This document shows, one piece after another, positions 12,673 through 20,763 of a stretch of 20,859 nt of DNA. Under the pieces are notes generated by a model that saw only the letters and a list, made by a program, of their open reading frames with translations, had not been told where the DNA came from and made no database searches. Location of the stretch: positions 1-20,859 of the IMG/VR virus record IMGVR_UViG_3300008267_001076, one strand, 5' to 3'. The DNA is from a virus. Every line of letters begins with the position of its first letter. The first letter of the stretch is position 1. A program made the position numbers and the translations under genes.

Positions 12673-12840
12673 ATGAAGACCTACCGAATGCTGATTGAGT
12701 ATTGGGTTCCTGATGAGGATGAGAATCTCTTTGAAGAGAAGATCATTCAGTCCCGATCCTCTTGTGGTAAGATTGCAGATGATTATCTGGCACAAGATCG
12801 TACTAATCTCATTCGCTCTGTTGAAGTCACTCCTGTTTGA
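12673..12840 (+). CDS. Hypothetical small protein (55 aa)
   Basis: MKTYRMLIEYWVPDEDENLF resembles the start of the product at 14911 (MKSLYIVDYWVPFPSSEYGG): a strand ending YWVP, then a helix (SCGKIADDYLAQD) and a last strand. This is the beta-alpha-beta look of a small family. Opens a unit behind the -10 at 12641. Confidence 0.65.
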   Translation: MKTYRMLIEYWVPDEDENLFEEKIIQSRSSCGKIADDYLAQDRTNLIRSVEVTPV

Positions 12841-13047: not shown

Positions 13048-13280
13048 TGACTGAAAAGCAAAACAAAATCATTAAGTACGCTCTGGTCGGTGGTGTTGTT
13101 ATCAATACGTTAATGTGTCTGAATCTTTACCGACAGATGCTCTCACTTCAATATCAAGTTACACAACTTGAAAGCGATTCGATGAGTGCCATTCAATCAT
13201 TGAGTCGTTATGTTTGGGAGATGAAGAATCCCCATCTGAATAATTCAAATAACTATCCTGCTGCTGGTGACTTTGAATGA
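13044..13280 (+). CDS. N-terminal membrane anchor with coiled coil (78 aa)
   Basis: ATG 13044 or 13047. A membrane span at about residues 10-28 (IIKYALVGGVVINTLMCLNL) is followed by a heptad-like stretch (LYRQMLSLQYQVTQLESDSM) and a Pro/Asn-rich tail. The type II topology would place the coil in the periplasm. Coupled by 4 nt to the RlpA-like gene, so it may act with it at the envelope; an inner-membrane spanin-like role is possible but unproven. Confidence 0.65.
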   Translation: MMTEKQNKIIKYALVGGVVINTLMCLNLYRQMLSLQYQVTQLESDSMSAIQSLSRYVWEMKNPHLNNSNNYPAAGDFE

Positions 13281-13591
13281 TTGAAACTGTAATTGCTGGT
13301 CTTGCATGTGGTGTTGCTACATATTACGGAATTGGTGACGGATTTCATGGACAAGTTACGGCAAATGGTGAGCGGTTTGATGCTTATCGTTGGACTGCAG
13401 CTCACCCTTATCTACCTATGGGTTCACGCATACGGGTAACCAATCAAGATAATGGAAAACAAGTAATTGTCAGAGTCAATGATCGTGGTCCATATTCACA
13501 TGCCGACCTAGATCTTTCTTATGCAGCATTTGCTCATATTTCTTCTACGTCAAAAGGTAATGCAACTGTTTGTTGGAGGGTGATTGGATGA
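13277..13591 (+). CDS. RlpA-like double-psi beta-barrel protein (104 aa)
   Basis: GVATYYG (12-18), TANGERFD (28-35), AAHPYLPMGSRIRV (41-54), VRVNDRGPY (65-73) and DLDLSYAAF (78-86) are the hallmark blocks of RlpA/double-psi barrel proteins, which bind or cleave septal peptidoglycan in bacteria. The C-terminal SPOR domain is missing. A short hydrophobic N-terminus (ETVIAGLACGVA) could export it but is a weak signal. Next to an anchored coiled coil and a secreted protein, it fits cell-wall remodelling. Confidence 0.85.
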   Translation: MIETVIAGLACGVATYYGIGDGFHGQVTANGERFDAYRWTAAHPYLPMGSRIRVTNQDNGKQVIVRVNDRGPYSHADLDLSYAAFAHISSTSKGNATVCWRVIG

Positions 13592-14910: not shown

Positions 14911-15141
14911 ATGAAATCACTTTACATCGTTGACTACTGGGTGCCGTTTCCTTCTTCTGAATACGGTGGTGTAGTTTCTCTGATTGCCGAGAATGATACA
15001 GAGGCATTTGAATTGCTTTCACAAGAGCAAGGATTCGATGATCGTTATACGAATCTGATTATGCCCAATGTCGTCAAGGCACAAAAGTTTTCACTTGTGG
15101 ACGATTACGAATCTGGTATTATTGACGCATTTACGACCTGA
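14911..15141 (+). CDS. Hypothetical protein, YWVP family (76 aa)
   Basis: ATG 14911 with AAGGAG about 16 nt upstream (rather far). MKSLYIVDYWVPFPSSEYGG followed by LIAENDTEAFELLSQEQGFD is a strand-helix fold like the products at 12673 and 19539 (MQLYILKEVLYDYTDG, helix AESMPQCEQIF). Probably a small diverged family; function unknown. Confidence 0.65.
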   Translation: MKSLYIVDYWVPFPSSEYGGVVSLIAENDTEAFELLSQEQGFDDRYTNLIMPNVVKAQKFSLVDDYESGIIDAFTT

Positions 15142-15334: not shown

Positions 15335-15605
15335 ATTCCCACACACTGCACCAAAAGGTTACTCTTATGAATTCGTTCAGTTCAAGACTCATGTTGTTGC
15401 AGTGTGGATTCATAATCATTACAGGTTTGTTTACAATGGTGGTGGGAGTGCTCGTAGTATCTGGGGATTCTACAACACAAAGACAAAGTGCTACCACTCT
15501 CCTGTCAACGCCAAAACAGTCGGTGATCAAGTAAGCATTGAACAGACGACTCCTTATTCTGCAATGATTCTCAAACGTACACCATTAGAACTTGCGTATG
15601 TATAA
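15324..15605 (+). CDS. Conserved cyanophage protein (93 aa)
   Basis: GTG 15324 sits 11 nt inside the previous gene. PKGYSYEFVQFKTHVVAVWI, RSIWGFYNTKTKCYHSPVNA and TTPYSAMILKR match a beta-rich cyanophage family that usually follows the LYRIEELCTTGW gene, as I recall. It ends 8 nt inside the next gene. Function unknown. Confidence 0.75.
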   Translation: MTIEFPHTAPKGYSYEFVQFKTHVVAVWIHNHYRFVYNGGGSARSIWGFYNTKTKCYHSPVNAKTVGDQVSIEQTTPYSAMILKRTPLELAYV

Positions 15606-15852
15606 ACCAAGACTGAATGATTATGTCAAGTGGACAAAGGGTGTTGAGGGTTGGGTTTACTTTGTGGATCAAGAGTATATTACGATTGAGACGATGGTAG
15701 TGCCCAAAGATCCAATTAACATCGAACATTGTTCATTACACAAGAATCATCGTCTTCTGGTTATTTGTTATCAGGAACAATGGAATGAATTGAATCAGAT
15801 TGGGTATCGTACCGATAAATATTCTGAAACAATCATTTCCAAAGCAGAGTGA
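15598..15852 (+). CDS. Conserved cyanophage protein (84 aa)
   Basis: MYKPRLNDYVKWTKGVEGWV followed by YITIETMVVPKD and HKNHRLLVICYQEQWNELNQ matches a beta-barrel-like small family that is syntenic with the two preceding genes in cyanophages. ATG 15598 overlaps the previous stop by 8 nt. No biochemical role is known. Confidence 0.75.
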   Translation: MYKPRLNDYVKWTKGVEGWVYFVDQEYITIETMVVPKDPINIEHCSLHKNHRLLVICYQEQWNELNQIGYRTDKYSETIISKAE

Positions 15853-15995
15853 AGACTTTCAATCAGTTTATATCTGAGATCACCGAACCCACCGAAGCAA
15901 TCCGCCGCCTGTTAAGAATACGTGATAAGAAACTTCATCAACAATACAAACAACAACAAAACCCGCCAGAACAGGATCCACTCAAACCAGTATGA
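15849..15995 (+). CDS. Protein with capsid-targeting-like N-terminus (48 aa)
   Basis: GTG 15849 overlaps the previous stop (GTGA). MKTFNQFISEITEP is very close to the T4 capsid-targeting peptide MKTYQEFIAEA that delivers internal proteins into the prohead, and ISE fits the gp21 protease rule (L/I)xE. The remainder is a basic helix (IRRLLRIRDKKLHQQYKQQQ) and a Pro-rich end, as expected for a packaged DNA-binding peptide. The packaging role is inference. Confidence 0.65.
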   Translation: MKTFNQFISEITEPTEAIRRLLRIRDKKLHQQYKQQQNPPEQDPLKPV

Positions 15996-16234
15996 AGAAG
16001 AAGACATTGTGGCGGTTATGGGCAAAGGCAATTGGTGAGAAAGCATCTAAGTGTGACAAAGAATCAGATCACATTGCTCATATACGCACTGTTATATTTC
16101 TCACTTATCTCATTACTAATCTATTCATTGTTGCAGGTGTAATTCGTCATTGGAACAAAAATGAAATACCAGGTTGTATACTACAAATTGAAGAAGGACA
16201 ACAAGAAAGCGAAACAAGAAGCAATTTTCTATAA
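15992..16234 (+). CDS. Conserved cyanophage membrane protein (80 aa)
   Basis: MKKKTLWRLWAKAIGEKASK, then HIRTVIFLTYLITNLFIVAG and VIRHWN match a conserved cyanophage single-span membrane protein (span about 31-50). The part after RHWN (last 25 residues) overlaps another gene at 16161 in a different frame and shows no conservation I know, so it may be a read-out tail. Confidence 0.7.
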   Translation: MKKKTLWRLWAKAIGEKASKCDKESDHIAHIRTVIFLTYLITNLFIVAGVIRHWNKNEIPGCILQIEEGQQESETRSNFL

Positions 16235-19813: not shown

Positions 19814-19842
19814 TTGTGCTGCCTCCCCATTCGTGCCATACT
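19814..19842 (+). promoter_or_regulatory. Promoter TTGTGC-17-CATACT
   Basis: TTGTGC (19814-19819) is 17 bp before CATACT (19837-19842). The hairpin differs: GGGGGTG at the end of the previous gene can pair with CACCCCC just before the -35 across a loop of about 20 nt. AACTGGCACAC is upstream; the leader ends AGACCGATG. Confidence 0.65.
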
Positions 19843-19863
19843 GATTCCATCAACACAAGACCG

Positions 19864-20763
19864 ATGAAGAACCTCCACCAAGAGCACCCCGAAGATACCA
19901 TCCTCACGGGTGATTTGACCGTGCTCGACTGGTTCGTGACACCTGGCACCCTGAGCGTTAAGATCGACGGAGCACCCGCAATCGTGTGGGGGATTGATCC
20001 TGCGACTGATACGTTCTTCGTGGGTACAAAAGCAGTTTTTAACAAAAAGAAACTGCGTATTGCACACTCTCACGATGAGATTGACCAACACTATGAAGGA
20101 AACGTTGCAGACATTCTGCACACTTGCTTTGACATTCTGCCCCGTACTGAGACAATCTATCAGGCAGAGTTTATCGGGTTCGGTGGATCTGATGAGTACA
20201 CTTCCAACCTGATTACGTATCAGTTCCCTGAGATTGTCACTCAAACTATTATCATCGCTCCGCACACTTGCTATTATGCTGAGAGCGATCTGCGTGAGGC
20301 AGTAGCGTATCCTGATCGTGCAACTTGGAATGATACTGAAACGGTCAAGTTTGTGAAACCTGATGCCTACATTCTGCACGGTCAAGAATCGTTCGCTGAT
20401 GTAGAAGAAGTGTGCAACTTTGCCCGTCAGATGGCAACCACCTGCCAGTTCGTTTCTAACACCGAAGCGGCAAAGATTAAAGTTGCCATTAACGCTTGCA
20501 TCCGTGAGCAACGTGAGATCGAAGATGATGCGTTTGGATGTGATCCTAACCTGATTCGTTTGTGGAAACTGGTTAAATCTATCAAAGAGGATTGCCTATT
20601 CCTGTGCCGCAACAATGGTCCTGCCGCTTACATCAAACAGGATCGGATTGATGCGGAAGGTTACACAATGACCAATGAGTTTGGTATGTTCAAACTGGTG
20701 AATCGTGAAGTGTTCTCCTACCATAATTTCACCAGCGGACGCTTTCAGTGTGCCAGTGCCTGA
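19864..20763 (+). CDS. Ligase/nucleotidyltransferase-like protein (299 aa)
   Basis: KIDG at residues 33-36 (SVKIDGAPAIVWG) resembles motif I (KxDG) of ATP-dependent DNA and RNA ligases, with Lys33 as the candidate nucleotide-binding lysine, followed by VGTKAVFNKK (53-62) and a later YQAEFIGFG strand. It matches, from memory, a cyanophage family beginning HPEDxxLTGDL. The residues beyond motif I are too diverged to claim activity. It is a one-gene unit and the longest product in the window. Confidence 0.75.
   Translation: MKNLHQEHPEDTILTGDLTVLDWFVTPGTLSVKIDGAPAIVWGIDPATDTFFVGTKAVFNKKKLRIAHSHDEIDQHYEGNVADILHTCFDILPRTETIYQAEFIGFGGSDEYTSNLITYQFPEIVTQTIIIAPHTCYYAESDLREAVAYPDRATWNDTETVKFVKPDAYILHGQESFADVEEVCNFARQMATTCQFVSNTEAAKIKVAINACIREQREIEDDAFGCDPNLIRLWKLVKSIKEDCLFLCRNNGPAAYIKQDRIDAEGYTMTNEFGMFKLVNREVFSYHNFTSGRFQCASA

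Follow-up and report, generated by a model that had tools for sequence, protein, structure and literature searches.

The window analyzed here, meaning the whole stretch of 20,859 bases, is a 20.9-kb IMG/VR fragment from an uncultured cyanobacterial phage. Its DNA matches Kyanoviridae, specifically the Synechococcus myophages S-PM2, S-SRM01 and S-SZBM1, and one of its proteins has a Pfam match to Kyano_Gp96. No tRNA or Rfam RNA was found in the 20.9-kb window, and none of its genes was recognised as coding for a prohead protease, a scaffold or a capsid protein; the head machinery is thus presumed from kinship with S-PM2 and S-SRM01. The features at the locus, with the N-terminal peptide referred to below as the label and the remainder as the cargo, are:

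15592..15852, + strand, upstream conserved gene, PHROG 522 (E 1.4e-16)
15814..15821, + strand, GATAAATA, T4-late-promoter-like, inside the upstream gene at codons GAT AAA TAt (DKY)
15849..15995, + strand, ORF of the proposed internal head protein, 48 aa, GTG start, TGA stop at 15993-15995
15849..15878, + strand, capsid-targeting-like peptide MKTFNQFISE, residues 1-10, proposed cleavage after E10, profile score 22.9
15879..15992, + strand, cargo, residues 11-48, basic and Gln/Pro-rich, varies between alleles
15992..16234, + strand, downstream conserved gene, PHROG 1679 (E 1.3e-27)

The list of ORFs for the window places the 48-residue frame exactly at 15849-15995 on the plus strand, where its GTG overlaps the TGA of the upstream ORF at 15850-15852 (GTGA) and its stop at 15993-15995 overlaps the ATG of the downstream ORF at 15992 (ATGA). 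Such overlaps are expected for a tightly packed phage operon, and the frame thus looks like a real gene. It is surrounded by tiny ORFs of the early-gene type and does not adjoin head genes. The full product, MKTFNQFISEITEPTEAIRRLLRIRDKKLHQQYKQQQNPPEQDPLKPV, is composed of MKTFNQFISE followed by ITEPTEAIRRLLRIRDKKLHQQYKQQQNPPEQDPLKPV, with residue 1 read as M or V at the GTG start. An initial reading made from the sequence only had described the remainder as basic and Gln/Pro-rich, which agrees with a net charge of +3 over its 38 residues and with Gln and Pro at the C-terminus. The cargo belongs to no known family, as PHROG, Pfam and PADLOC gave no match at the thresholds used, and among 50,697 phage records including T4, tblastn with the 48-aa protein as query found no match at E 10. 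A PHROG 3966 match to the first 28 residues (E 0.12) was rejected as not significant. Elsewhere in the window, the small proteins encoded at 12673-12840 and 14911-15141 have a common N-terminal pattern (MKTYRMLIEYWVPDEDE, MKSLYIVDYWVPFPSS) and are possibly paralogues.

The PHROG 522 and PHROG 1679 genes are usually joined directly in relatives. We distinguished 40 haplotypes at this junction, 36 without an insert and four with one, the latter being the window type (L128, L126), L129, L141 and L157. L126 has a near-identical copy of the 48-aa ORF (98%), and the three other alleles are divergent. All four insert alleles have a GTG start and VKTFxQF, while the label, the GTG and GATAAATA are absent from the 36 haplotypes lacking an insert. 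The cargoes of the insert products, which total 48, 47, 84 and 88 aa, differ from one another, with nothing shared beyond stretches rich in Gln and Pro and a short basic segment at the C-terminus of three. Homologue searches with two other insert alleles recovered near-identical copies only, indicating that the insert cargo is a fast-evolving accessory. L129 (3348-3551) and L141 (2485-2661) also have a second small ORF after the downstream gene, with a weaker label-like N-terminus, MKTF[SA]QLMEQ.

The late-promoter-like GATAAATA ends 27 nt before the GTG and is the sole [TG]ATAAATA in the window, both strands considered, where 2.0 are expected by chance. It occurs about 25-30 nt upstream, within DKY codons, in 4/4 insert alleles and in 0/36 haplotypes without an insert. 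Note that two relatives without an insert also encode DKY and lack the element because their Lys codon is AAG, and that the position is not alignable in most of the other relatives without an insert, so the association between element and insert is suggestive rather than a strong test.

An N-terminal label of the T4 capsid-targeting type

The likeness of MKTFNQFISE to the T4 label MKTYQEFIAE (IPII/IPIII), first seen in the sequence-only reading, is well borne out. Substitutions at residues 4 and 7 of the T4 label affect targeting and those at residues 8 and 10 affect processing (PMC9026906). The 48-aa protein has both targeting residues, F4 and F7, as well as I8 and E10. A degenerate DNA pattern for the motif gave one match in 20,859 bases and none in 100 shuffles. 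We also built a position-specific label profile with BLOSUM smoothing, trained on the IMG/VR N-termini described below together with T4 IPI-III, which scored the start of the 48-aa ORF at 22.9 and the next best start in the window at 7.5. When run over every possible T4 start codon, this profile gave 23.3 for gp61.1, 19.8 for IPIII and IPII, 16.5 for IPI and 8.9 for the best unrelated start; since IPI-III are part of the training set their rank in T4 is not independent, and the useful part of these scores is the gap to background. For the proposed gp21-type cleavage at ISE, the I-x-E part of the rule is present (I8-S9-E10), and Ile stands directly after the proposed cut in place of the usual Ala found there in T4 IPII/III.

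T4 IPI-III resemble the 48-aa protein in having a ten-residue N-terminal label with an aromatic residue at positions 4 and 7 and Ile at 8 (Thr in IPI), with Glu at 10 in IPII and IPIII, and in having a small, basic and non-conserved cargo. However, the similarity is confined to the label, and the 48-aa protein is not a homologue by sequence. It also differs in its length (48 aa versus 95-193), its cyanobacterial host, its location in an early-type gene cluster and in being known here from sequence alone. A second T4 protein, gp61.1, is similarly very small (54 aa) and has a near-identical label (MKTFKEFIKED), but its remainder is unrelated. With the top label score in the T4 genome, above IPI-III, this protein (MKTFKEFIKEDM..., L212:18966-19130, minus strand) is annotated only as hypothetical and may be a further packaged T4 protein.

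The label is not tied to one cargo. In a scan of IMG/VR that left position 6 of the motif free, at least 120 loci had an ORF beginning with the motif, these ORFs being 27 to about 600 residues long. At least about 130 IMG/VR ORFs carry the label N-terminus, and in all but a few of these the upstream extension of the frame is short. BLAST of the cargoes from residue 13 onward, with the first twelve residues removed, gave at least 68 unrelated clusters, 57 of them single sequences. The free position 6 is Gln or Glu in 80% of the labelled IMG/VR set, and Ala is the commonest residue at position 11 (55/128, 43%). Pfam domains among the labelled proteins listed include SAM lyase (8) and cytidylyltransferase-like (5), as well as DUF6267, P-loop kinases, zeta-like domains, GNAT, ADP-ribosyltransferase, HicA, HD, adenylate kinase, Cpn10, HNH and a DPBB domain. 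PADLOC recognised no known defence family among the labelled proteins listed. The DPBB protein, in L082, starts VKTFKEFINEA, and a related RlpA-like DPBB protein without the label is encoded in the window at 13277-13591.

DUF6267 proteins exist both with and without the label. Specifically, two IMG/VR members (L050, L051) have MKTF..FI.E as an add-on that is directly followed by a KNxHxxHxED start, and the DUF6267 proteins of S-SZBM1, S-CRM01 and the window (19816-20763) have the KNxHxxHxED start without it. The label-less S-SZBM1 protein is absent from the virion list of that phage (PMC9146016).

The looser promoter-like sequence NATAAATA is present within 60 nt upstream of 26% of the labelled IMG/VR genes listed as compared to 11% of other ORFs (p = 2.6e-6), and TATAAATA alone shows no enrichment before the same genes.

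Labelled proteins in cyanophage virions

We addressed the association of the label with particles in three cyanophages that have published virion proteomes, namely S-CREM2, S-SZBM1 and S-SCSM1. The S-CREM2 virion proteome covers 52 of 219 genes (PMC10665884) and includes all five (5/5) of the best-scoring annotated starts in that genome, an outcome with a chance probability of 6.5e-4, or 4.4e-5 when 24 known structural proteins are set aside. These are:

gp154, cytidylyltransferase, MKNFSSFLTE, in virion
gp136, unknown, MQTFSMFFSE, in virion
gp14, APH-like kinase, VKRFDAFLTE, in virion
gp6, SAM hydrolase, MKDFDSFLEE, in virion
gp13, unknown, MKDLHSFLTE, in virion

The motif pattern for S-CREM2 was widened after its virion N-termini were known; as an independent check on the widened motif, the label profile described above, which was trained without S-CREM2, ranks the same five first among annotated genes. 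In this phage [TG]ATAAATA is commoner before virion genes (10/52) than before the others (9/167, p = 0.004), and it lies upstream of four of the five labelled virion genes, in the form of TATAAATA or GATAAATA. The five proteins have the same label type as the 48-aa protein and come from the same phage family. They differ in being mostly enzymes or larger proteins and in having been seen by mass spectrometry, where the 48-aa protein is so far a translated reading frame. Homologues of five S-CREM2 virion proteins make up 26 of the 128 labelled IMG/VR proteins listed.

The other two phages gave fewer detections. In S-SCSM1, for which detected proteins are marked in the record, one of two labelled proteins is in the virion, NMNAT (MKSFLQFLKE) being present and gp30 (MKTFKQFMSE) undetected. 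In S-SZBM1, where 30 virion proteins were detected (PMC9146016), the count is one of four: the cytidylyltransferase (MRFRQFIIEA) is in the virion, gp191 and gp192 are undetected, and a CP12 protein lacking F4 and F7, though scoring above the threshold, is absent. When the three phages are pooled, 7/11 labelled proteins are in virions as against 127/719 (p about 8e-4). This indicates that the label is a strong but not exceptionless enrichment for virion proteins. Shallow proteomes and small protein size may be a partial cause of the misses.

The authors of two of the virion studies warn that such enzymes are possibly contaminants left after CsCl purification (PMC10665884, PMC9602691); the label that these enzymes have in common argues against this. 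It also bears on an objection raised in the sequence-only reading, namely that the same N-terminus on plainly cytoplasmic enzymes would speak against packaging. Many enzymes do bear the label, but the objection applies in form only, as three labelled S-CREM2 enzymes (the SAM hydrolase, the APH-like kinase and the cytidylyltransferase) were detected in virions.

Two further observations concern these genomes. A family of labelled proteins about 105 aa long (...VNISGDFNGNLYVN...) is encoded beside virion genes in S-SZBM1 (L210:22311-22628) and S-SCSM1 (L222:44215-44535) and is in neither proteome. The S-CREM2 virion protein gp12 (L122:7704-10313) is named Cas9 in its annotation, matched nothing in Pfam and contains a label-like (L)RFASFMAEAA shortly after its annotated start, which suggests a misplaced start and a doubtful name.

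Proposed packaging and injection, and alternative readings

The explanation that we favour, at a probability of roughly three in four, is that the 48-aa protein is a T4-type internal head protein that is expressed late, packaged, cleaved and injected by a Kyanoviridae-like cyanomyovirus. Directly supported are the label, its T4 functional residues, its portability, its association with virions in other phages and the variation of the cargo at this locus. The internal head protein proposed in the sequence-only reading thus stands as regards capsid targeting, for which the functional residues, the many cargoes and the over-representation in virions are good support. Packaging and injection of the 48-aa protein itself are probable by analogy, since the label is found on dozens of unrelated proteins and labelled enzymes are present in purified cyanophage particles. 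Speaking against the favoured explanation are the early-type surroundings of the gene, the Ile after the proposed cut, the three well-labelled proteins undetected in S-SZBM1 and S-SCSM1, the missing enrichment of TATAAATA before labelled IMG/VR genes and the warning about contaminating enzymes.

The protein would be transcribed late from its own GATAAATA promoter in the last part of the upstream gene. Residues 1-10 would bind the prohead core and bring the protein into the assembling head, where a gp21-type prohead protease would cut after ISE. The basic 38-residue remainder would then stay with the DNA and enter the host with it, where its most likely target would be an early host function or a defence. 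By analogy with IPI and IPIII, which enter the host by injection and are required against some hosts (PMC9026906, PMC9391042), a counter-defence role is plausible. The kind of protein is a known one, that of T4 internal proteins with a capsid-targeting sequence; what is new is this 48-aa member, together with its locus and cargo.

The main alternative, which we consider unlikely at perhaps one chance in eight, is that the label sends the protein to the prohead core and that its role there is that of a minor scaffold or assembly helper instead of an injected effector. T4 IPIII mutants show slower head assembly and more polyheads (PMC9026906), and the cargo is a short basic stretch of low complexity, without enzyme-like features, both of which are congruent with a role in assembly. 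However, the locus is an optional and fast-changing insert, which would be more fitting for an accessory factor than for a part needed in assembly, and the T4 internal proteins of known role act in the host (PMC9391042).

It is less probable still that the label resembles that of T4 by descent or chance and that the protein is a small cytoplasmic early protein that is never packaged. The neighbourhood of tiny early-type ORFs and the labelled but undetected S-SZBM1 gp191 and gp192 and S-SCSM1 gp30 are in line with such a protein, as is T4 thymidylate synthase (MKQYQDLIKD), a cytoplasmic enzyme that passes a loose version of the motif. Weighing against it are the score of 22.9, compared to at most 8.9 for unrelated T4 starts, the presence of the labelled S-CREM2 genes in virions far above background, and the retention of the label at this locus while the cargo changes. 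Finally, a pure RNA or translation-start element without peptide signal, as might be thought from the constant position of the stretch at the start codon, is very improbable and was rejected given that synonymous variation occurs at the Lys, Thr, Phe, Ile and Glu codons alike among the 128 labelled members listed, indicating that the peptide is what is conserved and under selection, and that the importance of the peptide is evident from mutants of T4 (PMC9026906).

Of more interest than the 48-aa protein itself is how widely aquatic phages use the label. A review has suggested that T4-like phages in general may package diverse proteins by means of the label (PMC9026906). Our literature search, which covered open-licence articles, found none in which enzymes of cyanophage virions are connected with the T4 label or in which its broad use on enzymes of aquatic T4-like phages is described. 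We lean toward the view that in aquatic T4-like phages one label serves to load the head with a large and exchangeable set of proteins destined for injection, and that there are sites at which cargo is swapped. This set would include SAM lyases, NMNAT-like and other cytidylyltransferases, kinases, ADP-ribosyltransferases, acetyltransferases, HicA-like proteins and many unknowns, and 15849-15995 would be one such site, where the label, the start and the late promoter stay and the payload changes.

Injected proteins help decide whether a phage survives its first minutes in the host, and few are known outside T4. If the view above is correct, the label would be a sequence rule that predicts injected proteins from metagenomes, and the injected sets of many marine and freshwater phages would become readable and testable. 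Such a rule would also explain the recurrent cytidylyltransferase (NMNAT) and SAM hydrolase in cyanophage virion proteomes as addressed proteins, not contaminants. Among the labelled loci, one 14-kb contig has four genes near one another at L057:6505-9422 that bear the label (MKTFKQFI[TSL]E) and differ in their cargo, a possible packaged-protein cluster.
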